From: Rhodoligotrophos appendicifer
Lineage (GTDB): Bacteria > Pseudomonadota > Alphaproteobacteria > Rhizobiales > Im1
DNA: 64,000 bases
Direction: 5' to 3'
Assembly: GCF_007474605.1 (NCBI RefSeq)
Contig: NZ_VHKL01000006.1
Location: forward strand, 248,001 to 312,000
Below the pieces are notes generated by a model. It worked only from the letters and a program-made list of their open reading frames with translations. It did not search any database and was not told where the DNA came from. Below are positions 39,287 to 50,446 of this stretch, in pieces. How positions within the stretch are numbered: position 1 is the stretch's first letter; every line of letters begins with the position of its first letter. The translations under genes were made by a program, and so were the position numbers.

Positions 39287-40390
39287 ATGAAACTTCGCTG
39301 CATAGAGACCTTTTCCGACCGGTATGTCGGGTTCGTTCGCATCACTGACGAAACCGGGGCACAGGGCTGGGGTCAGGTTTCGCCATACAATGCGGACATC
39401 ACATCGCAGATCCTGCACCGGCAGATCGCGCCTTGGTCACTGGGCGTCGACACGACAGATCTCGATGACCTCGTGGATCGGATCGAGGAGCGTGAGCTCA
39501 AATTTCCTGGCTCCTATGTCCGCCGCGCCATCACCGGGCTCGACACCGCCATCTGGGATCTCAGGGGCAAGCATGCCGGCAAGCCGGTGGTCGAGCTTCT
39601 CGGCGGCCGTCCCGGCCAATTGCGCTGCTATGCGTCGTCGATGAAGCGGGACATTACACCGGAAGACGAGGCCGAACGGTTCCTCCGCCTCAGGGATCGC
39701 CATGGCTTCGATGCCTTCAAGTTCCGCGTCGGAGCCGAAGCCGGCCGTGATATCGACGAATGGCCGGGCCGAAGCGAAGCGATTGTGCCGACGATCCGCC
39801 GAGCGCTCGGCGACGAGGCCACGCTGCTCGTGGATGCAAATAGTGGTTTCTCGCCGGCACGCGCCATCGAGATCGGCCGGCTGCTCGAGGCGCATGGCGT
39901 GGTTCATTACGAAGAGCCCTGCCCCTATTGGGAACTCGAACAGACCAAGCAGGTCACCGATGCGCTCGACTTGGACGTGACCGGCGGCGAACAGGATTCC
40001 GACTTGCGCATTTGGCGGCGGATGATCGAGATGCGCGCGGTCGATATCGTGCAGCCCGACATCTGCTACGTCGGAGGGGTCGGCCGTATGCTGAGAGTGG
40101 CGCGCATGGCCGAGGCCGCGGGCCTGCCGGTGACGCCGCATGCTGCCAATCTGTCCTTGGTGACGCTGTTCACCATGCATGTTCTGGCTGCGATTCCGAA
40201 TGCCGGGGCTTATCTCGAGCTGTCGATCGAGGGGGCGGATTACTACCCCTGGCAGCAAGGCCTCTTCCGCAACGATCCCTACAAGGTATCCAATGGCACA
40301 GTTTCGATTGACGACACCCCGGGATGGGGTGCCGATATCAATCCGGAATGGCTGGCGCGATCGCGCTACCAGATGAGCAAGCTGGATTAG
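39287..40390 (+). CDS. Enolase-superfamily enzyme, mandelate racemase subgroup
   Basis: 367 aa. Barrel residues: KxR motif FKFRVG, metal ligands Asp (LVDANSG), Glu (HYEEPC) and Glu (TGGEQDS), then Asp in [10 protein letters not shown] and catalytic His in TPHAANLS. The His places it in the mandelate racemase subgroup, unlike the MLE-like enzyme at 33425. It may dehydrate or epimerise a hydroxy or amino acid; substrate unknown. It starts with ATG 39287 60 bases after operator site 1 and is divergent from mocR. Confidence 0.88.
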
Positions 40391-40402
40391 GCGTTGCCTG
40401 AG

Positions 40403-40425
40403 GCCGGAGAGCGATTGTCTCCGGC
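40403..40425 (+). repeat. Hairpin overlapping the oxidase translation start region
   Basis: GCCGGAGA and TCTCCGGC form a perfect 8-bp stem with a 7-base loop. The right arm ends where the GGGGGGAG SD of the next gene begins, so folding could affect ribosome access. Confidence 0.5.
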
Positions 40426-40445
40426 GGGGGGAGTTGAAGACGGTC

Positions 40446-41747
40446 ATGAGCACAGGCTCGCTGTTCACGGATGATTTCAAGCTTTCGCCCTATTGGTGGG
40501 ATGCGACGCCAAGGCCCGAGATATCCCCCGGCGACCTGCCCGAGCGCGTGGATGTTGCGGTCATCGGGTCTGGCTATACGGGGCTTTCCGCGGCCTTGCA
40601 GACCGCCCGGGGCGGGCGGTCGACCCTCGTGTTCGACGCCGAGGACGCAGGCTGGGGCTGCAGCACGCGCAATGGCGGCCAGATCAGCACCAGTGTCAAA
40701 CCCAACCTCGCAGAGCTGACGAAACGCCACGGTCCGCAGACGGCGCGCGCGATTCTATCGGACGGAAGGAAGTCCCTGAAGTGGATCGGCGAATTCGTGG
40801 CGGAGGAGAACATCGAGTGCTCCTTCGGCGTGGTGGGGCGCTTCCATGCCGCCCATAATACGGCAGCCTTCCGCAACCTGACGGAGTCCTTTGCAACGGA
40901 GCCGGAAGAGTTTGAGACGGGCGGCTGGGTTGTGCCGCGATCGGAGCAGAGAGAGGAACTCGGGACGGACGCCTATCATGGCGGCGTGGTCTATCCGCGC
41001 CATGCTGTGCTCGACCCCGGAAAGTTTCACCATGGCCTCCTGGAAAGGGTTCTGCAGGCCGGGGCCGCCATCGCGACCCACTGTCCGGTCACCGGCATCG
41101 AGCGGATGAAGCAAGGCTTTCGGCTGACCACGCCTCGCGGGATCCTCGAGGCTCGCGACGTCGTGGTCGCTACGAATGGCTACACGGGCAAGATCACGCC
41201 ATGGCAGCGTCGCCGCGTCATCCCCATCGGCAGCTATGTCATTGCGACCGAGGAGTTGCCGCCAGGAATGGCCGACCGCCTGTTCCCCAAGAACCGCATC
41301 GTCTCCGATACCCGAAAGGTGGTCTATTATTATCGGCTCTGCTCCGATCGGCGTCGCATTATCTTCGGTGGCAGGGTCAGCCACGGCGAAACCGACCCCA
41401 TCAAGAGCGCAGCCAAGCTCAGGGACGAAATTGTCCGACTGTTTCCGGAGCTCGCAAACATTCGGGTCAGCCATTCTTGGATGGGCCTCGTCGCCTACAC
41501 ATTCGACACGCTCGCCCATGCCGGCAAGCATGACGGGCTCCATTACGCAATGGGCTATTGCGGCTCCGGCGTCGCGATGGCGGGATATCTTGGCATGCGG
41601 GTTGGCCAGCAGGTCCTCGGCCTGCCGGAGGGCCGCTTGGGCGTCGAGGCAGCACCGTTCCAAACCCGCCCGCTCTACTACGGCTGGCCTTGGTTCCTGG
41701 CACCCTCCGTCTCCTATTATCGCTGGCGCGACAGCCGCAACAGATGA
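40446..41747 (+). CDS. FAD-dependent DAO-type oxidoreductase (gamma-glutamylputrescine oxidase-like)
   Basis: 433 aa. The N-terminal Rossmann motif VAVIGSGYTGLSAALQ and the block WGCSTRNGGQIS are typical of OrdL/PuuB-type amine oxidases. The C-terminus YCGSGVAMAGYLGMRVG binds FAD. It probably oxidises an amine or N-substituted amino acid with H2O2 or electron release. The start is uncertain between TTG 40434, close to GGGGGGAG, and ATG 40446. It lies between the MR-subgroup enolase and the PotD-like gene, in the same MocR locus. Confidence 0.88.
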   Translation: MSTGSLFTDDFKLSPYWWDATPRPEISPGDLPERVDVAVIGSGYTGLSAALQTARGGRSTLVFDAEDAGWGCSTRNGGQISTSVKPNLAELTKRHGPQTARAILSDGRKSLKWIGEFVAEENIECSFGVVGRFHAAHNTAAFRNLTESFATEPEEFETGGWVVPRSEQREELGTDAYHGGVVYPRHAVLDPGKFHHGLLERVLQAGAAIATHCPVTGIERMKQGFRLTTPRGILEARDVVVATNGYTGKITPWQRRRVIPIGSYVIATEELPPGMADRLFPKNRIVSDTRKVVYYYRLCSDRRRIIFGGRVSHGETDPIKSAAKLRDEIVRLFPELANIRVSHSWMGLVAYTFDTLAHAGKHDGLHYAMGYCGSGVAMAGYLGMRVGQQVLGLPEGRLGVEAAPFQTRPLYYGWPWFLAPSVSYYRWRDSRNR

Positions 41748-41755
41748 CACAGCCG

Positions 41756-41804
41756 GATTGGCATCCAACACCAGATAAAATGGACCTATAGGTGGATGCC
41801 AATC
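41756..41804 (+). promoter_or_regulatory. Tripartite MocR operator candidate, site 2
   Basis: GATTGGCATC (41756-41765), N16, GGACCT (41782-41787), N11, CCAATC (41799-41804), with outer arms GATTGGCATCCA and TGGATGCCAATC fully complementary over 12 bp. It lies 84 bases before the PotD-like gene. The spacing is identical to site 1. Confidence 0.72.
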
Positions 41805-41888
41805 GCCCTTAGCTTTGAGATCGGGGCCGACGCTCACGCCATGGACGTATGAAACTACGCCGGTCGGCCGAGATGGAGGGATGCTGCA

Positions 41889-42968
41889 ATGAGATCTCCA
41901 CGAAGAGGCTTTGTCGTTCTCGGGGCGCTGCTGAGCGTTCTCATGGCGAGCACGGCACAAGCCGAGACGCTTCGGCTGTTGACCTGGGGCAATTATGCAC
42001 CCGACAAGGTCATCGAAATGTTCGAGAAGAAATATCCGGACATCAAGGTCGAGGTCACCTTCTCGAACAACGAGGAAATGGTGGCCAAGCTACGGGCGAC
42101 GGGAGGCGCCGGTTTCGATCTCGCCCAGCCGAGCCATGACCGGATTTTCTCGGCTCAGAAGGAATTCAACATCTATAAGCCGATGGATCTGACCAAGATC
42201 GATCTTTCGGTCCTGGACGAGAAGCTGCTGGCCGGGGTCAAGGCGAACACCACGATCGACGGCGAGGTCTACGCCGTTCCCCATGAATGGGGCACCTCCG
42301 GCATCATGGTCGACAAGACCAAGGCGCCGGAAATCAAGAGCTGGGCCGATCTCTGCGATGAGAAGTACAAGGGCAAGACCTCCATGAGGTTGCGCCGAAC
42401 CATCCTGCTCGGCACCGCCTTTGCCATGGGCAAGGATCCCTTCGCGGCCTACGGCAATCTGGACGATTACAAGAAGCTCATGGACGAGGTTGCCGAGAAG
42501 CTGATCGCCTGCAAGGCGATCGTGAAGACCTATTGGAAGGCCGGGGACGACCTGTCGGCGCTCATGCTCTCGGGCGAAGTCATCGCCTCCGAAACCTGGG
42601 ATTCGACGGCCTACAAGCTTTATTCCCAAAACCCCAACATCGTCTTCGTGCCGCCGGAGACGGGCGCATTGGCCTGGATCGACACATTCGCCCTGCCGCG
42701 CAAGGGCGAAGCGGATGAAGCGGCCTACAAATGGATCAACTTCGTCATGCAGCCCGACATTGTCCCGCTGATGTCGGACAAGAGCGGTGCGGTCGTTGCG
42801 GTCAAGGATGGCATCGCGAAGATGCCGGAGGACAAGCGCAAGGCGGTGCAGGCAGCGTTCAAGCCTGAGGACATCGCCAATCTGAAGTTCTTCGCCAACA
42901 TCCCGCCAGGCCTCGAAGACATCGAGGGCAAGACGCTGGAGAGGATCCAGGCCGCCACGGCCAACTGA
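41889..42968 (+). CDS. Polyamine-type ABC transporter, periplasmic binding protein (PotD/PotF-like)
   Basis: 359 aa. Signal peptide ends near TAQAE. PotD-like blocks include LRLLTWGNYAPDKVIEMFEKKYP, VPHEWGTSGIMVD and the C-terminal Ala/Lys-rich end. It binds a cationic or amine substrate in the periplasm (family); the aromatic and acidic contact residues cannot be aligned by eye. It is preceded by operator site 2 and followed by a large stem-loop. Confidence 0.92.
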   Translation: MRSPRRGFVVLGALLSVLMASTAQAETLRLLTWGNYAPDKVIEMFEKKYPDIKVEVTFSNNEEMVAKLRATGGAGFDLAQPSHDRIFSAQKEFNIYKPMDLTKIDLSVLDEKLLAGVKANTTIDGEVYAVPHEWGTSGIMVDKTKAPEIKSWADLCDEKYKGKTSMRLRRTILLGTAFAMGKDPFAAYGNLDDYKKLMDEVAEKLIACKAIVKTYWKAGDDLSALMLSGEVIASETWDSTAYKLYSQNPNIVFVPPETGALAWIDTFALPRKGEADEAAYKWINFVMQPDIVPLMSDKSGAVVAVKDGIAKMPEDKRKAVQAAFKPEDIANLKFFANIPPGLEDIEGKTLERIQAATAN

Positions 42969-42987
42969 TCCGGAAGATCCGCGACCT

Positions 42988-43022
42988 CTCCGCTTGGACG
43001 GTGCCGTCCCGCCCAAGCGGAG
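42988..43022 (+). repeat. Large stem-loop after the PotD-like gene
   Basis: CTCCGCTTGG (42988-42997) pairs perfectly with CCAAGCGGAG (43013-43022), and GGACGG-TG-CCGTCC is nested inside. It sits in the 128-base gap before the ATPase gene. It probably stabilises or partly terminates the binding-protein mRNA. Confidence 0.65.
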
Positions 43023-43096
43023 TTCAACGCCGGTTCCTTGTTCAGGGTATAACCGAGCCCGGCGTGTCGCGGAATACAAGGGGGCCTGGGGGCAGC

Positions 43097-44179
43097 ATGT
43101 TCGACCTCGAATGTATCGACGTGACGAAGCGCTTCGGGCCTGTGACCGCTGTCTCCGGCGTTTCTCTGGACGTGCCGAGCGGCACCTTTTTCTCCATTCT
43201 CGGCCCCTCGGGCTGCGGCAAGACGACCTTGATGCGCATGATCGCCGGCTTTGAGACCCCGAGCGCCGGCGACATTCGCATCAAGGGCAAATCGGTGGTC
43301 GAGACCCCGCCGAACAAGCGCAACGTGAAGATGGTGTTTCAGCACCTGGCCCTGTTTCCGATGATGGATGTCGGGGAGAACATCGCCTATGGCCTTCGCT
43401 GTCGTGGCGACGGCAAGGCCGATATCGCGCGCAAGGTGAAGTCGGTGCTCGAGCGGGTCGGCCTGCCCGATGCGGCGGAGAGACAGGTCAATCAGCTCTC
43501 CGGCGGCCAGCGCCAGCGTGTCGCGATTGCCCGTTGCATGGTGCTCGAGCCGGACGTCCTGCTGCTCGACGAGCCCCTGGGCGCTCTCGACCTGAAGCTC
43601 CGCGAACACATGAAGATCGAGCTCAAACTACTTCAGAGCCAGTTCGACACCACCTTCCTCTATATCACCCACGACCAGTCCGAAGCCCTCGTGATGTCGG
43701 ATCGTGTCGCCGTGATGAATGCCGGCATCTTCGAGCAGGTGGGCACTCCCCAGGAGCTCTACCATCATCCCCGCAGCAGCTTTGTTGCCGGCTTCGTCGG
43801 TGACAGCAATCGCTGGAGCGGTCGCGTCGTGCGGATCGACAAAGCGGTCTGTCAGATAGAACTCGAGGACAAGACCCGGGTCCTGGCGACGGGCCATGAT
43901 GCGCTGTCCGTCGGTGACCGCGTCGATGTCTTTGTTCGCCCCGAGGCCCTTCGTCTTTCCAGCGAGGAGGCCCAGGACGGTTGCAACCACTTCGTGGGGA
44001 CGCTGGACAGCCTGCTCTTCAACGGTGCCAATAGCCGGCTGCTTGTCCGCACCGCCAGCGGAATGGTTGAGGTTGACAGTCGTGCCCCATCGGACTCGAT
44101 CCCTGCCGCCGGATCCCCTATCGCGATCGCCAGTGCGGTGGACAAGACCCTGTGCTTTCCGCAGCGGGACCTCGCATGA
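43097..44179 (+). CDS. Polyamine-type ABC transporter, ATP-binding subunit (PotA-like)
   Basis: 360 aa. Walker A GPSGCGKTTL near residue 38, signature LSGGQRQRVAIARC, Walker B VLLLDEPLGALD, and a C-terminal TOBE domain (CNHFVGTLDSLLFNGANSR). ATG 43097 is chosen because the upstream frame is not ATPase-like. Its stop overlaps the next permease start at ATGA. Confidence 0.93.
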   Translation: MFDLECIDVTKRFGPVTAVSGVSLDVPSGTFFSILGPSGCGKTTLMRMIAGFETPSAGDIRIKGKSVVETPPNKRNVKMVFQHLALFPMMDVGENIAYGLRCRGDGKADIARKVKSVLERVGLPDAAERQVNQLSGGQRQRVAIARCMVLEPDVLLLDEPLGALDLKLREHMKIELKLLQSQFDTTFLYITHDQSEALVMSDRVAVMNAGIFEQVGTPQELYHHPRSSFVAGFVGDSNRWSGRVVRIDKAVCQIELEDKTRVLATGHDALSVGDRVDVFVRPEALRLSSEEAQDGCNHFVGTLDSLLFNGANSRLLVRTASGMVEVDSRAPSDSIPAAGSPIAIASAVDKTLCFPQRDLA

Positions 44180-45045
44180 ACACGGCAGAGACCCGCCGGC
44201 TGTCTCTGTTCCTGCTCTTTGCCCCCTTTCTGATGTGGATCGGGCTCCTGATTGTCTTGCCGCAGCTTGGCATTCTTGGCGTGTCCTTGCGCGAAAAGCT
44301 GGGGCCGCAGAACTATGCGATCGGCTTTGGCAATTATGCTGACTTTCTGCAGGAGCCCATCTACTGGAACACGCTTCTCAGAACGGCCGTGATGTCGATC
44401 ATCGTGACCGCGCTCGCCCTCCTCATGGGCTTTCCGATCGCCTACTACATTGCCAAGGTGGCCAGCCGGCGCAGCCGTGCCGGCTTGTTCCTGCTGTGTC
44501 TGGTTCCACTCTGGGTCAGTGACCTCGTTCGCGCCTTCGGCTGGATCATCCTCCTGCGCGAGACCGGAATCGTCTCGGTGGCGTTGCAGGCGGCGGGCAT
44601 GACGGACGGTCCTGTGGAGCTACTCTACAACGACGTCACCATCGTCATGGGTCTTGTCTACACCGTCGTTCTGTTCATGATCGTGCCTCTGGTCTCGACC
44701 CTTGACGGCATGGACGACAGCCTGATTGAGGCGGGGCTCAACCTCGGCGGCAATCGGTTCACGGTGTTCCGCCGCATCGTCGTGCCCTATGCCATGCCGG
44801 GGATCGTCGCCGGCTGCATCATCGTCTTCATGCTCGCGGCCGGCAGCTATCTCACTCCGGTTCTGCTGGGCGGCAAGAACAGCATGTGGTTCACCGAGCA
44901 GATCTACAACCAGTTCATCACGCGCTACAATTGGGAGGCTGGCGCCACCTTCGGAATGCTGCTGCTCGCCTTCACGTCCGTGGTTGTCTGGATCGGGCTG
45001 AAGGCGACCGGACAGAGCCTCGGCTCCACGGTCGCGAGGCACTGA
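44176..45045 (+). CDS. Polyamine-type ABC transporter, permease (PotB-like)
   Basis: 289-aa inner-membrane protein with about six helices. The EAA loop is visible as LIEAGLNLGGNRFTVFRRIVVPYAMPG. It starts at the ATGA overlap with the ATPase gene and pairs with the next permease, 2 bases downstream. Confidence 0.93.
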   Translation: MNTAETRRLSLFLLFAPFLMWIGLLIVLPQLGILGVSLREKLGPQNYAIGFGNYADFLQEPIYWNTLLRTAVMSIIVTALALLMGFPIAYYIAKVASRRSRAGLFLLCLVPLWVSDLVRAFGWIILLRETGIVSVALQAAGMTDGPVELLYNDVTIVMGLVYTVVLFMIVPLVSTLDGMDDSLIEAGLNLGGNRFTVFRRIVVPYAMPGIVAGCIIVFMLAAGSYLTPVLLGGKNSMWFTEQIYNQFITRYNWEAGATFGMLLLAFTSVVVWIGLKATGQSLGSTVARH

Positions 45046-45047
45046 CC

Positions 45048-45905
45048 ATGAACGTCGCAGCGCCCCAATCGGCAGTGGCCCGTCGTCTTTACCAGGCCTA
45101 TATGGTGGCCTTCTTCGTCTATCTCGCAGCACCCCTGATCGTCGCGGGCCTGTTTGCCTTCAACGACTCCCTGTTTCCCTCGATGCCCTGGCGCGGCTGG
45201 ACCCTGGACTGGTTCTTCAACGACACAGAGCCCATGCTCGGCCTCTTTCACGACCGCAGACTGCTGGCGTCCATATGGACCTCGGTCAAAGTGGGCGTGG
45301 TCGTTTCGCTGCTCTCCGCGCTGGTTGGCACCTGCAACGCGTTCCTGTTCGAACGTCATGATTTTCCCGGAAAACGATACCTCTATATCCTGATGATCGT
45401 GCCGCTCGTCATCCCCGGGGTGATCATGGGCATCGCCATCCTCGTCTTTGCGAGCCTGATCGCCAATGGCGTCGAGGACGGGCTGGGCTTCGACCTCGGC
45501 ATGCTGCGCCCCGGACTTCCCTTGGTGATCCTGGGTCAGTTCTCTTTTCTCACAACCATCACCTCCCTCATCATCGCCGCGCGGCTGAAGAAATTCGATA
45601 TCGCCCTGGAAGAGGCAGCTCTCAATCTGGGTGCCAGCCGTCCGCGCGTGCTGCGGACGATCACATTGCCCTATTTGGCACCGGCGATCGTCTCGGCATT
45701 CATCGTCGCCTTTCTCGTCTCCTTTGAAAACTTCAACACGACCCTGATGCTCGTTGGCTCGGAAGCGCCTTTGACGATCACCATGTATGACCGCATGGCC
45801 AAAGTCGGCTCGACGCCGGTCCTCAATGCCGTGTCCTTCGTCTTGATGGTGGGGTCGGCTCTTCTCGCGCTGCTGAGCGTCTTCGTGCAGCGTCGCGGCG
45901 ATTGA
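45048..45905 (+). CDS. Polyamine-type ABC transporter, permease (PotC-like)
   Basis: 285 aa with about six helices and an EAA loop LEEAALNLGASRPRVLRTITLPYL. ATG 45048 is chosen; the longer frame runs antisense-like through the PotB gene. It ends the four-gene transporter. A small GGGCG-AGG-CGCCC hairpin (45911-45923) follows and may end transcription. Confidence 0.93.
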   Translation: MNVAAPQSAVARRLYQAYMVAFFVYLAAPLIVAGLFAFNDSLFPSMPWRGWTLDWFFNDTEPMLGLFHDRRLLASIWTSVKVGVVVSLLSALVGTCNAFLFERHDFPGKRYLYILMIVPLVIPGVIMGIAILVFASLIANGVEDGLGFDLGMLRPGLPLVILGQFSFLTTITSLIIAARLKKFDIALEEAALNLGASRPRVLRTITLPYLAPAIVSAFIVAFLVSFENFNTTLMLVGSEAPLTITMYDRMAKVGSTPVLNAVSFVLMVGSALLALLSVFVQRRGD

Positions 45906-46067
45906 GCGCTGGGCGAGGCGCCCTCTGAAATGTGCCAGCTTCGCTTTTTTTCCCGCGTCACCTTCGGAGTCCCTGGACCGGCCCGCCAGCTGTGATACGA
46001 CCTATCAGTTCGCGGAAGTTGCACGATGCACGGTCGTTCTCTCGGCTGCATATGTTCAGGGGTTAAC

Positions 46068-49000
46068 ATGCTCGGATGTTTGGACGCTGCCGGCCGATCC
46101 GGATCGCATCGCGGCCGGAACTCTCTGGTCGCAGCCCTGTTGGGGATTGTGGTCGTCCTTGTCCTTAGCTCTCCTGCAAGTCAGGCTCAGGGTGCCGGCA
46201 GCCCCACCGGGACCATGCGGTCCGAGTTCCGCGAGCCGGTCACCCTGATCAGCAGGGACGGCGTGCTGGAGGTCCGACTGACGGCGCGTCAGGGCGAAGC
46301 CGCCCTGGACACGGTCGCCGGTCCCGTGAAGAATTTCCTGCTCTTCAGCTATGAACTCATCCGCGGCACCGCCTCGAATGGCCAGACGTCGGGCGAGAAC
46401 CTTTACCCGGCGCCGACGCTCCAGGTCTTTCCCGGTGAAAAGCTCATCGTCCATTTGGAGAACGGCCTCAGCGATCTGGCTATCCGGGATTTCTACAGCC
46501 CTCAATACACGGCAACCGGCCAGGACGTTCCGCTCTATCCCATTCAGCTGACATCTGCGCCGCTGAACCTCCATGTTCATGGCCTCCATGTCAGCCCCAA
46601 GGGCAACTCCGACAATGTCATGATCCACATGCCCGCCGGCACGGCGAATACATACACCTATGACGTGCCCAAGAGCATGCCCCAGGGCGTTTACTGGTAT
46701 CACAGCCATCTCCACGGCCTCACGGCGGCGCAGGTCTATCTTGGTCTCGTCGGCATGCTTGCCATCGGTCGCACCGATGGCGGCCTGCCCATTGTGACCG
46801 AAAACAAGATCCCCATCCGCAACATGCTGCTGCAATACAACTACGTCTTCGACCGCGAGGGCGGACAGGAGGATCTCAACAATCCCTATTGGCCGCAATA
46901 TGTCAGCACTCTCGTCCCGCCCGAGAAGGACGAGCTTGCAAGCGGCACCTATCGGCCTTTGATGACGCCGATCAACTTCGACAATGCCAAGCCCGGGGCG
47001 AAATTCATCACGAACTGGTATGCCGGGCCGCTGTCGATCCGCAATTTCCGGGGCCGGATGCAGTTCATCCCCAGCAACCTCGTCCGCTTCACGTCGTTCA
47101 GCGACGACCGGAGCGAGGATGTCCCCGACCGGCCTTCGCTCCCGGACGAGCAGCGCGATGTCCAATTCACCGTGAACGGGCAGTTCCAGCCGGCGATCAA
47201 GAGCAAGGCCGGCCAGACCGAGATCTGGGTGCTCGCGAATGTGAGCGACATCGCCTATATGAACGTCCAGCTCACGGAGACCGCCACGGGCAACCACCCC
47301 AAGATCGCCATCGTGGGCCAGGACGGCAATCCCTATGGCGCCGTTCACACTCCCCCGACCGATAACGGCACCCGCCTCGTCATCCCACCGGCCAGCCGCT
47401 TCGCCATCGCGGTGACGATTCCCGCCGAAGGCGATCTCGTCCTCGAAATTCCCTCCCGCGGCGACGGCGCCAAGACGATCGCCTTGCCGGGTATCGCCTA
47501 CACCAATAACGGCACCGAGAACCCACCCGCCGTCCTCGGCAGTGTCAGCACGCTGCCTGATGTCATCAGCTATGATGACGGCTTCTTCCTGTTCCCGACC
47601 CAGGTCTTGGCGCGTGCCACATCCACCGGAGAGAAGGGCGTGACCACGCCTTTCGTGGAGGGCCAGCCGCTGAACGCCTATACCTCCTTCGTCGAGCTGT
47701 CCGGCGCGGCGCCGGACGTCAAGCGCGAGATCAAGATCGGTGGCGGCTTTCTCAATAACATGGCGAGCCAGGCCGATCCGAAATCCTTCGTCTATGCCTT
47801 TGACGGCGGCGCTTTTCCCAACGTGCCCCTGGTTCAGCCGCGCCTGAACTCGGTGGAGGAATGGACCTTCGTCAACTTCAACAATGACGAGCATCCGATC
47901 CACGTCCATGTGAATGATTTCCAGGTGACCGAATATTTCGATCCCACCACCGGTCTGAGAACCGGCCCGGACAAGTTTGGCGTCGACAATGCGAACGTCC
48001 CCGCACCGACCATGCATTCCGACGAATTCGTGGTTCAGCCCGGCCGTCTCAGCATGCGCACCCGCTTCGATGACTATGACGGCCTCTATGTCATGCACTG
48101 TCATCGCCTGAACCACGAAGACAACGGCCTCATGGCCCTGATCAACGTGATCCCGGAAATCTCCGCCTATGCGGTGGCGGTCCCCGGCGCGGCCGGCAAG
48201 CCTGCCGAAGTGCGAGTCTATGATGGCAATGGCGACAGGCTGCTCGCCACAATCGTGCCCTTCCCCGGCTTCGAAGGCAGTGTGAGCGTCGCCATGGGTG
48301 ACGCGGATGACGACAGTGTCCTCGACTTGGTCGTTGGCACGGGCGCCGGCCGCACCTCCGAGGTCGTCGCCTTTTCCGGCAAGTCGGCGTTCACGGACGA
48401 GATCCTGCGCTTCCAACCCTTCGCCGCCGACGCCCGGGGCGGCATCAGTGTCGCAGTGAGCTCGATCGATGGCGGGACCGGCGACAACATCATCGTGGGC
48501 TCGGGGCCGGGCATGGCCAGCGAGGTCCGCGTCTATGGCGGCAAGCAGGCCTCCGGCGCGGCACCGGACCTCTTCTCGTCATTTGCGCCCTATGAAGGGG
48601 ACACGTCAGGCGTGACCCTGGCGACCGGATTTGTGGATTTCTCCACCGGCCGCAACAGCATCGTCACCGCGCCCGGTGCCGGCACCGAGACCGAGGTGAA
48701 GGTTTTCGCCTTCCCGCTGCTGACGCCGCTCGCAAAGAGTGGCCATGGCATGGCCCATGGCGGCAGGGTGAATGAGCCGATCGAGACCTCGAGTTTCAAG
48801 CCTTATGGTCAGGAATACAAGGACGGCGTCTCCCTGGCCACCGGTTGGCTCGCCGGGGTCTTCGGCGGGGCGAAGCGGATCATCGTCGGGCAGCTTGGGG
48901 GCCGAGGAACGGTCAAGATCTTCTCCAGCGGATCGGCGCTTGACGGGGGACCGTCGATGTATCTGCACAATCCCAATGAGCACGGCCATGGTGCTGGCTT

Positions 49001-49238
49001 CCGCGAGATCGCCAGCTTCGAGCCCTTCGGCGGCGCGCCCGGCAGTCATGTGGCGGCCACGAGCACCGTCTATGGTGCCAACCTGCTGGTGAGCGGCGGA
49101 GCCGCGTCTGGCGCCGGCACCATCGTGAAGTATGACTTTGCAAGGCCCGCTCCCGAGGCGACCACGCTGGAACCTGTTCGCATCGGCGAGGTGGCTGCGA
49201 CTAAACTCACGCAGCCGGCGGTTCTGGCCGGCAACTGA
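46068..49238 (+). CDS. Multicopper oxidase fused to C-terminal FG-GAP-like repeats
   Basis: 1056 aa, putatively exported (signal segment ending SSPASQAQ). Copper motifs are complete: HVHG (169-172), HSHLHG (212-217), HPIHVHV (609-615) and HCHRLNHE (677-684), giving type 1, 2 and 3 sites. From about 720 to 1035 five related blocks follow (for example SVSVAMGDADDDSVLDLVVGTGAG, SFEPFGGAPGSHVAA), resembling FG-GAP/integrin-type beta-propeller repeats. The start is uncertain: ATG 46068 with AGGGG upstream, or ATG 46026. Substrate unknown; metal, phenol or bilirubin-type oxidation are options. Confidence 0.9.
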   Translation: MLGCLDAAGRSGSHRGRNSLVAALLGIVVVLVLSSPASQAQGAGSPTGTMRSEFREPVTLISRDGVLEVRLTARQGEAALDTVAGPVKNFLLFSYELIRGTASNGQTSGENLYPAPTLQVFPGEKLIVHLENGLSDLAIRDFYSPQYTATGQDVPLYPIQLTSAPLNLHVHGLHVSPKGNSDNVMIHMPAGTANTYTYDVPKSMPQGVYWYHSHLHGLTAAQVYLGLVGMLAIGRTDGGLPIVTENKIPIRNMLLQYNYVFDREGGQEDLNNPYWPQYVSTLVPPEKDELASGTYRPLMTPINFDNAKPGAKFITNWYAGPLSIRNFRGRMQFIPSNLVRFTSFSDDRSEDVPDRPSLPDEQRDVQFTVNGQFQPAIKSKAGQTEIWVLANVSDIAYMNVQLTETATGNHPKIAIVGQDGNPYGAVHTPPTDNGTRLVIPPASRFAIAVTIPAEGDLVLEIPSRGDGAKTIALPGIAYTNNGTENPPAVLGSVSTLPDVISYDDGFFLFPTQVLARATSTGEKGVTTPFVEGQPLNAYTSFVELSGAAPDVKREIKIGGGFLNNMASQADPKSFVYAFDGGAFPNVPLVQPRLNSVEEWTFVNFNNDEHPIHVHVNDFQVTEYFDPTTGLRTGPDKFGVDNANVPAPTMHSDEFVVQPGRLSMRTRFDDYDGLYVMHCHRLNHEDNGLMALINVIPEISAYAVAVPGAAGKPAEVRVYDGNGDRLLATIVPFPGFEGSVSVAMGDADDDSVLDLVVGTGAGRTSEVVAFSGKSAFTDEILRFQPFAADARGGISVAVSSIDGGTGDNIIVGSGPGMASEVRVYGGKQASGAAPDLFSSFAPYEGDTSGVTLATGFVDFSTGRNSIVTAPGAGTETEVKVFAFPLLTPLAKSGHGMAHGGRVNEPIETSSFKPYGQEYKDGVSLATGWLAGVFGGAKRIIVGQLGGRGTVKIFSSGSALDGGPSMYLHNPNEHGHGAGFREIASFEPFGGAPGSHVAATSTVYGANLLVSGGAASGAGTIVKYDFARPAPEATTLEPVRIGEVAATKLTQPAVLAGN

Positions 49239-50446
49239 GAACTCCCCTGACCGACCGCACGCCCATAGCGCGATTCCTGCTGGCGGTTGCCTTCATTCTC
49301 GGCGCCTTCAGCCTGAGGACGCATTTCACGAGCATTTCGGTGCTCCTGCCAGAGATCAACCGCGACACGGGCCTCTCCAGTACCGCCGCCGCCTATCTCA
49401 CGACGCTGCCGGTCCTCTGCCTCGGCCTTTTCGCACCTCTTGCGGCACGATCCTCCGACCGTTTTGGCATGGACCGGACCCTGCTTGCCAGCCTGGTGCT
49501 GTTGACCATTGCCCTTGCCGCGCGAGGCACCGGCGAGGCGGCCATCCTCTTTGCCGCATCGATTCTCGCCGGCGCCTGCATCGCCATCGGCAATGTCCTG
49601 CTGCCGGCGCTGGTAAAGCGCGACTTCTCCGACCACGTCGCCCTCATGACCAGCCTCTATACCATGGCGATCACCGGCGGGGCCGCGGTGGCCGCCGGTG
49701 TCACCGTCCCCCTCGCGGCCGGTCTCGGCGGGAATTGGCATCTGGCTCTGGCGCTGTGGTTCATCCCTGCCCTTCTCGCCGTCATCGTCGCTTCGCCCCT
49801 GGCGCGCGGCCGCGATCGCGTCACCACACGCCGGCCCGCTCTCGGTCACTTGTGGAAGAGCGCCCTGGCCTGGCAGGTCACCACCTTCATGGGCCTCCAA
49901 TCGGGTTTGGCATTCGCGGTCCTCGGCTGGCTTTCCCCCATTCTGCGCGAACGGGGGCTGGACGGCGTCCGCTCGGGCTATGTCCTGAGCGCTCTTGTCG
50001 TCGCCCAGGTCGTAAGCTGCCTTCTCGTCCCGCAAATTGCGGTGCGCGGCCGCGACCAGAGAGCCCTCAATGTTGCCCTCGCCGTCACCGCGGTCATCGC
50101 CCTTCTGGGCCTGCTCTTCGCCCCCCTGGCGTGGATCTGGCCCCTTGCCATCATTCAGGGTCTCGCCCAGGGGGGCCTTCTCTCGGTTTCCCTGACCATG
50201 ATCGTGCTGCGCTCGCGCACGCCGCAAGTTGCCGCCCATCTCTCCGGCATGGCTCAGTTCGTGGGCTACATGATCGCGGCACTCGCGCCTTGGCTGATCG
50301 GCCTGCTGCATGACTGGACCGGCAACTTTGAAGCCTCAGGCGCGCTGTTCGTGGCCATTTGTACCGGACTGGTGATCAGCGGACTGGGCGCGGGCCGAAG
50401 ACTTCAGCTCGGAGATGCCGCAAGACCTGCGAGTGCGTTGAACTAA
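49235..50446 (+). CDS. MFS transporter, CynX/NimT-like, with non-canonical start
   Basis: About 403 aa if translation begins at CTG 49235. The first helix (ARFLLAVAFILGAFSLRTHF) is coded by codons upstream of the first canonical start (GTG 49340), yet between the in-frame stop at 49202 and 49340 there is no ATG, GTG or TTG. CTG 49235 overlaps the multicopper oxidase stop as CTGA, in the position of a usual ATGA junction. CTG 49247 is the alternative. A start at 49340 would delete TM1. Family members export or import cyanate, nitroimidazole or small acids; substrate unknown. Confidence 0.8.
   Translation: MRTPLTDRTPIARFLLAVAFILGAFSLRTHFTSISVLLPEINRDTGLSSTAAAYLTTLPVLCLGLFAPLAARSSDRFGMDRTLLASLVLLTIALAARGTGEAAILFAASILAGACIAIGNVLLPALVKRDFSDHVALMTSLYTMAITGGAAVAAGVTVPLAAGLGGNWHLALALWFIPALLAVIVASPLARGRDRVTTRRPALGHLWKSALAWQVTTFMGLQSGLAFAVLGWLSPILRERGLDGVRSGYVLSALVVAQVVSCLLVPQIAVRGRDQRALNVALAVTAVIALLGLLFAPLAWIWPLAIIQGLAQGGLLSVSLTMIVLRSRTPQVAAHLSGMAQFVGYMIAALAPWLIGLLHDWTGNFEASGALFVAICTGLVISGLGAGRRLQLGDAARPASALN

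Follow-up and report, generated by a model that had tools for sequence, protein, structure and literature searches.

A multicopper oxidase fused to an FG-GAP-type propeller is conserved in at least five bacterial phyla and recurs beside molybdenum hydroxylase genes

The window analysed here, a stretch of 64,000 nucleotides from Rhodoligotrophos appendicifer, carries a gene for a 1056-residue protein in which a putative signal peptide is followed by a multicopper oxidase (MCO) core and a C-terminal FG-GAP beta-propeller (Table 1). A further in-frame ATG at 46026 would lengthen the protein by 14 residues. A 786-aa reverse-strand frame (46056-48416) was taken to be a shadow frame; relatives show a similar long reverse frame opposite the MCO.

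The MCO gene stands alone between transport and dehydrogenase genes, with no molybdenum (Mo) hydroxylase or ABM gene beside it. The plus-strand run at 39287-45905 encodes an enolase-superfamily enzyme, a DAO-type FAD oxidoreductase and a polyamine-type solute-binding-protein ABC transporter; it is probably a catabolic uptake operon. Directly behind the MCO, also on the plus strand, lies an MFS transporter gene (49238-50446); because its first ATG/GTG/TTG, at 49340, removes the N-terminus expected from the MFS_1 profile, this gene may use a rarer start codon or contain a sequence error. A functional link of the MCO to its neighbours in the window (polyamine-type ABC transporter, DAO, MFS, aldehyde dehydrogenase, TauE and flavin reductase genes) is not supported, since close relatives of those genes do not recur beside the family; the homologues found there were weak transporter ones, mostly in the Ancylobacter group, and one aldehyde dehydrogenase.

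Table 1. Features of the MCO-propeller gene in the window, and the type A Mo hydroxylase found at other loci of the family
Feature	Location	Strand	Basis
MCO-propeller CDS, 1056 aa	46068..49238	+	uninterrupted frame; relatives share layout
Putative Sec signal peptide, residues 1-40	46068..46187	+	hydrophobic core 19-33, then SPASQA
Multicopper oxidase core, residues 52-697	46221..48158	+	Pfam; Foldseek
Copper motif 1, HVHG (H169, H171)	46572..46583	+	ligands invariant
Copper motif 2, WYHSHLH (H212, H214)	46695..46715	+	ligands invariant
Copper motif 3, HPIHVHVNDF (H609, H612, H614)	47892..47921	+	ligands invariant
Copper motif 4, HCHRLNHEDNGLM (H677, C678, H679, H683)	48096..48134	+	ligands invariant
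C-terminal FG-GAP beta-propeller, residues 697-1050, about six blades	48156..49217	+	predicted structure, profile matches
Blade 1, partial, three strands (697-736), first strand missing	48156..48275	+	DSSP strands of models; sequence
Blade 2 (737-790)	48276..48437	+	predicted strands, sequence
Ca2+-loop-like DADDDSVLD in blade 2 (D745, D747, D749, D753)	48300..48326	+	conservation
Blade 3 (791-846)	48438..48605	+	predicted strands, sequence
Blade 4 (847-917), low-confidence loop near 892-898	48606..48818	+	predicted strands, sequence
Blade 5 (918-990), invariant G926-W927	48819..49037	+	predicted strands, sequence, conservation
Blade 6 (991-1050)	49038..49217	+	predicted strands, sequence
Type A Mo hydroxylase beside MCO	L030:13132-16391; also L034, L042, L043, L066, L079, L101, L111

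A preliminary description of the sequence had called the protein a multicopper oxidase with four intact copper motifs and spoken of an extracellular oxidase; the copper motifs and export were supported. Pfam finds Cu-oxidase_3 (PF07732; residues 163-234, E = 5e-11, 43.1 bits against a cut-off of 21) and Cu-oxidase_2 (PF07731; residues 568-694, E = 9e-15, 55.0 bits against 20.4), and the ten histidine and one cysteine copper ligands are invariant in 69 of 69 aligned family members. N-termini in the family, assigned by regular expression and inspection by eye, show three kinds of export signal: a lipobox in most Actinomycetota, a Tat-like signal in the Reyranella group, and SPase I-like signals. 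Leu688 occupies the type-1 axial position (C+10), where leucine is found in 98.6% of the 69 sequences. In laccases, leucine at this position gives a higher-potential site than methionine does, and by analogy Leu688 fits a higher-potential type-1 site in this family.

The best structural match of the MCO part in Foldseek is the Thermus thermophilus laccase 2xu9 (E = 9.5e-34, TMt 0.81), a cupredoxin-domain fold. Three-domain bacterial laccases (2xu9, CotA and bilirubin oxidase) are its best PDB matches both by sequence and by fold, and share with it the cupredoxin fold and all four copper motifs. They are about 20% identical to the family, however, which differs from them in its larger core (about 645 residues vs 440-510), in the leucine at the type-1 axial position and in the added propeller of about 350 residues. 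The protein fits none of the named MCO subfamilies, since its scores with the NCBIfam equivalog models for CueO, CopA, ascorbate oxidase, laccase and PhsA lie far under the cut-offs (39.4 bits against 525 for the CueO model, 15.3 against 479 for copper_res_A).

For the C-terminal part, five FG-GAP-like repeats had been proposed. The FG-GAP assignment stood: FG-GAP_3 matches this domain in all 69 members at E <= 0.1 (best 5.4e-10), the match in the window protein alone (residues 713-756, E = 1.8e-4, 22.5 bits) being under the curated cut-off of 26.9, and a PDB profile search returned CRTAC1, integrin alpha-V/alpha-IIb and, weakly, ITFG2. Structure prediction likewise gave confident models, whose strands fit a propeller with a different blade count. 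The AlphaFold2 models, made from the family alignment for the full-length protein (pLDDT 89.3, pTM 0.89) and for the C-terminal domain alone (pLDDT 90.7, pTM 0.92), have 23 core strands, three of them within residues 700-729 and the others in five complete four-strand repeats that span 737-1050; the sequence repeat GGVSVA..D....IIVG.G.G...EVRVY.G....F.PF begins in its second strand, at residue 697. Because this pattern of strands and repeats looks like a propeller closed by a split blade, six predicted blades, five full and one partial, are the better reading. Low complexity was ruled out as the identity of the domain by the high-confidence fold and the FG-GAP matches.

Like the propellers of integrin alpha-V, CRTAC1 and ITFG2, this domain combines FG-GAP_3 matches and a predicted propeller fold with a calcium-loop-like motif in one repeat. 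It differs from integrin alpha in being fused to an oxidase, in having a single well conserved calcium-type loop and in its blade number, the 23 modelled strands falling short of the seven blades of an integrin alpha head. In the loop, which by analogy with the FG-GAP/integrin motif may bind calcium, D745 and D753 are conserved in 100% and D749 in 99% of the 69 sequences. Foldseek returns many propellers that differ in blade number; integrin alpha heads (TMq about 0.5) are among them, and propeller-bearing rhamnogalacturonan lyases are also among its top matches. With so many other propellers returned, the predicted fold class is secure but not the identity of the nearest structural relative. 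In a plasmid search at E <= 1e-3, the propeller occurs only in these MCO fusions.

A survey of genomes found the domain pair conserved across at least five phyla. The 68 aligned relatives (45-69% identity) all have the same full-length layout, and the MCO-propeller is one protein with a fixed two-domain layout throughout the family. A scan of 84,980 species genomes gave at least 80 best loci, nearly all of them full-length matches, in Alphaproteobacteria, Actinomycetota (environmental Mycobacterium and Rhodococcus species are among the carriers), Eremiobacterota, Melainabacteria/Obscuribacterales and Acidobacteriota, and in single MAGs of other groups; the family is larger than the loci listed. 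By tblastn, the whole architecture is also encoded on plasmids of Methylocella tundrae (68%), Ancylobacter polymorphus (62%) and Mycobacterium gallinarum (57%), where NCBI labels it only 'multicopper oxidase domain-containing protein', and in one more genome of the window's class (67%). The same full-length frame in many independent genomes and plasmids rules out a fusion created by a frameshift or mis-assembly. At two loci (L112, 5968-8001; L041, 608-3205) the MCO frame stops early though the tblastn match runs on, probably through sequencing or assembly frameshifts.

A quick tree separates a mainly actinobacterial group from a mixed group that includes the window protein. Since several phyla interleave in the mixed group and copies are found on plasmids, the distribution suggests horizontal transfer, with MAG binning errors as an alternative cause of the interleaving. 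A viral origin was rejected; IMG/VR yielded a single distant MCO match.

The association of the family with Mo hydroxylases is recurrent across loci: at 47-49 of 84, a Mo-hydroxylase large subunit is encoded within about 6 kb of the MCO (40 of type B, 9 of type A). In type B, which has no signal peptide (cytoplasmic), the FeS and Mo parts are fused and a FAD subunit is encoded alongside; often a two-ABM-domain membrane protein is encoded next to it as well. Type B accompanies the MCO in Actinomycetota, Eremiobacterota, one Methyloceanibacter MAG and one Acidobacteriaceae MAG, and the linked Mo proteins are about 54-74% identical to the copy in the window's genome. Type A, in which Mo and FeS genes are separate, occurs in Methylocella, Microvirga, Ancylobacter and one Acidobacteriaceae MAG; eight members of the set are 68-100% identical and one (L050) only 34%. 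Every intact type A N-terminus examined has a twin-arginine-like motif (SRREF/TRREL). A search limited to the FAD kind of type B detected no such gene beside type A.

In the window's genome, contig 9 (79810-85416; L124:3811-9417) encodes in one cluster a 369-aa exported protein, a FAD subunit, a FeS-Mo fusion and a two-ABM-domain membrane protein. The FAD, FeS-Mo and ABM genes of this cluster are the orthologous, unlinked partner set of the MCO family. The 369-aa protein heading the cluster matches no Pfam or NCBIfam family and was not found beside the MCO at other loci. In several other genomes where the MCO is unlinked, type B Mo and ABM genes still lie side by side, and 22 of the 36 MCO-positive genomes without type B linkage hold type B elsewhere. 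Many of these 36 belong to classes outside a sample of 385 genomes from the window's class, in which type B (presence threshold E <= 1e-180) was found in five genomes, including both MCO-positive ones; the other three are without MCO. The co-occurrence in this sample gives a Fisher p of 1.4e-4 (0.01 without the window's genome); this value and the counts ignore relatedness among genomes that are not independent. Two congeners of the window's organism (G001 and G002) and one genome of the same family have neither the MCO-propeller gene nor type B. MCO-bearing genomes of Obscuribacterales/Melainabacteria and some MCO-bearing MAGs contain neither Mo hydroxylase at the thresholds used.

We consider it somewhat probable that the protein acts outside the cytoplasm as a laccase-type oxidase, in one pathway with the Mo hydroxylase, and that its propeller is a docking module. 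The fold and the full ligand set argue for oxidase activity: the type-1 copper site of the exported enzyme would oxidise a reduced substrate one electron at a time, and O2 would be reduced to water at the trinuclear cluster. The predicted six-bladed, integrin-alpha-like propeller may serve less as a cell anchor than to keep a bulky substrate or a partner protein close to the oxidase, as its conservation and the analogy with other FG-GAP propellers suggest. The conserved partners point to a metabolic role, and we infer that the Mo hydroxylase and the oxidase serve one pathway, which in many genomes would include the two-ABM-domain membrane protein; in the window's genome these partners would be supplied from the other contig. 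From the class of the Mo hydroxylase, our guess at the substrate is an aromatic, N-heterocyclic or aldehyde compound.

The propeller might instead serve chiefly for attachment, holding a free-standing extracellular oxidase to the cell wall, to exopolysaccharide, or to plant or humic polymers. Integrin FG-GAP propellers bind ligands, the lyases among the Foldseek matches bear propellers and the protein is exported; yet most actinobacterial members keep the propeller despite a lipobox of their own, as do members with Sec or Tat signals, and its conserved partners are redox enzymes of the cell interior or the periplasm and do not belong to polysaccharide systems. Because members that are separately lipidated retain the propeller, surface anchoring is weakened as its core role, and we think it unlikely. 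A purely structural propeller, serving oligomerisation or as a lid over the type-1 site and having no partner of its own, seems to us equally doubtful, though it would agree with a domain that no member lacks and that is well conserved (mean majority identity in the 69-sequence alignment 0.67, vs 0.74 in the MCO part) and with the pTM of the full-length model, which suggests a defined orientation to the MCO.

An oxidase of Mn(II), Fe(II) or Cu(I), akin to other large bacterial MCOs or to the CueO-like enzymes of copper tolerance, is quite improbable. Mn(II) is oxidised by several bacterial MCOs (for example PMC4454072, PMC3618234), and heavy-metal P-type ATPase genes lie near the M. gallinarum plasmid copy. 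CueO and CopA, moreover, are exported MCOs with the same ligand set. The family nevertheless falls under their equivalog cut-offs, shows no methionine-rich loop or insert in its sequence and carries the extra propeller, and its recurrent neighbours are Mo hydroxylases rather than copper-tolerance genes. The docking reading also has a more specific form, which we regard as very improbable: the MCO-propeller and a Mo hydroxylase would make up an oxidation system of their own across the cytoplasmic membrane; at type A loci both enzymes would be periplasmic, and the Mo hydroxylase would hand its electrons to the MCO directly or through a carrier, with the propeller as docking platform.

The MCO and FG-GAP domains are each known, but their conserved fusion and its partnership with Mo hydroxylases appear undescribed: the open-access literature searched, limited in scope, held nothing relevant on MCOs with FG-GAP domains or with Mo hydroxylases. 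Bacterial laccases have mostly been used and studied as small stand-alone enzymes, whereas the laccase core described here always comes with an integrin-like propeller, is conserved across at least five phyla and is mobile on plasmids. Its recurrent Mo-hydroxylase company offers a testable route to the substrate and, if confirmed, to a new oxidative pathway.

A distant, three-part version of the architecture is encoded on a plasmid of Gloeothece verrucosa PCC 7822 (L033:4662-8399; WP_013334609.1, again 'multicopper oxidase domain-containing protein' at NCBI). Here too an MCO is followed by FG-GAP repeats, but the protein is only about 23% identical to the family, and with 1245 residues it has an added RTX-like C-terminus. 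Since its BLAST match is collinear across the domain junction, the pairing of MCO and FG-GAP domains is older or wider than the main family.
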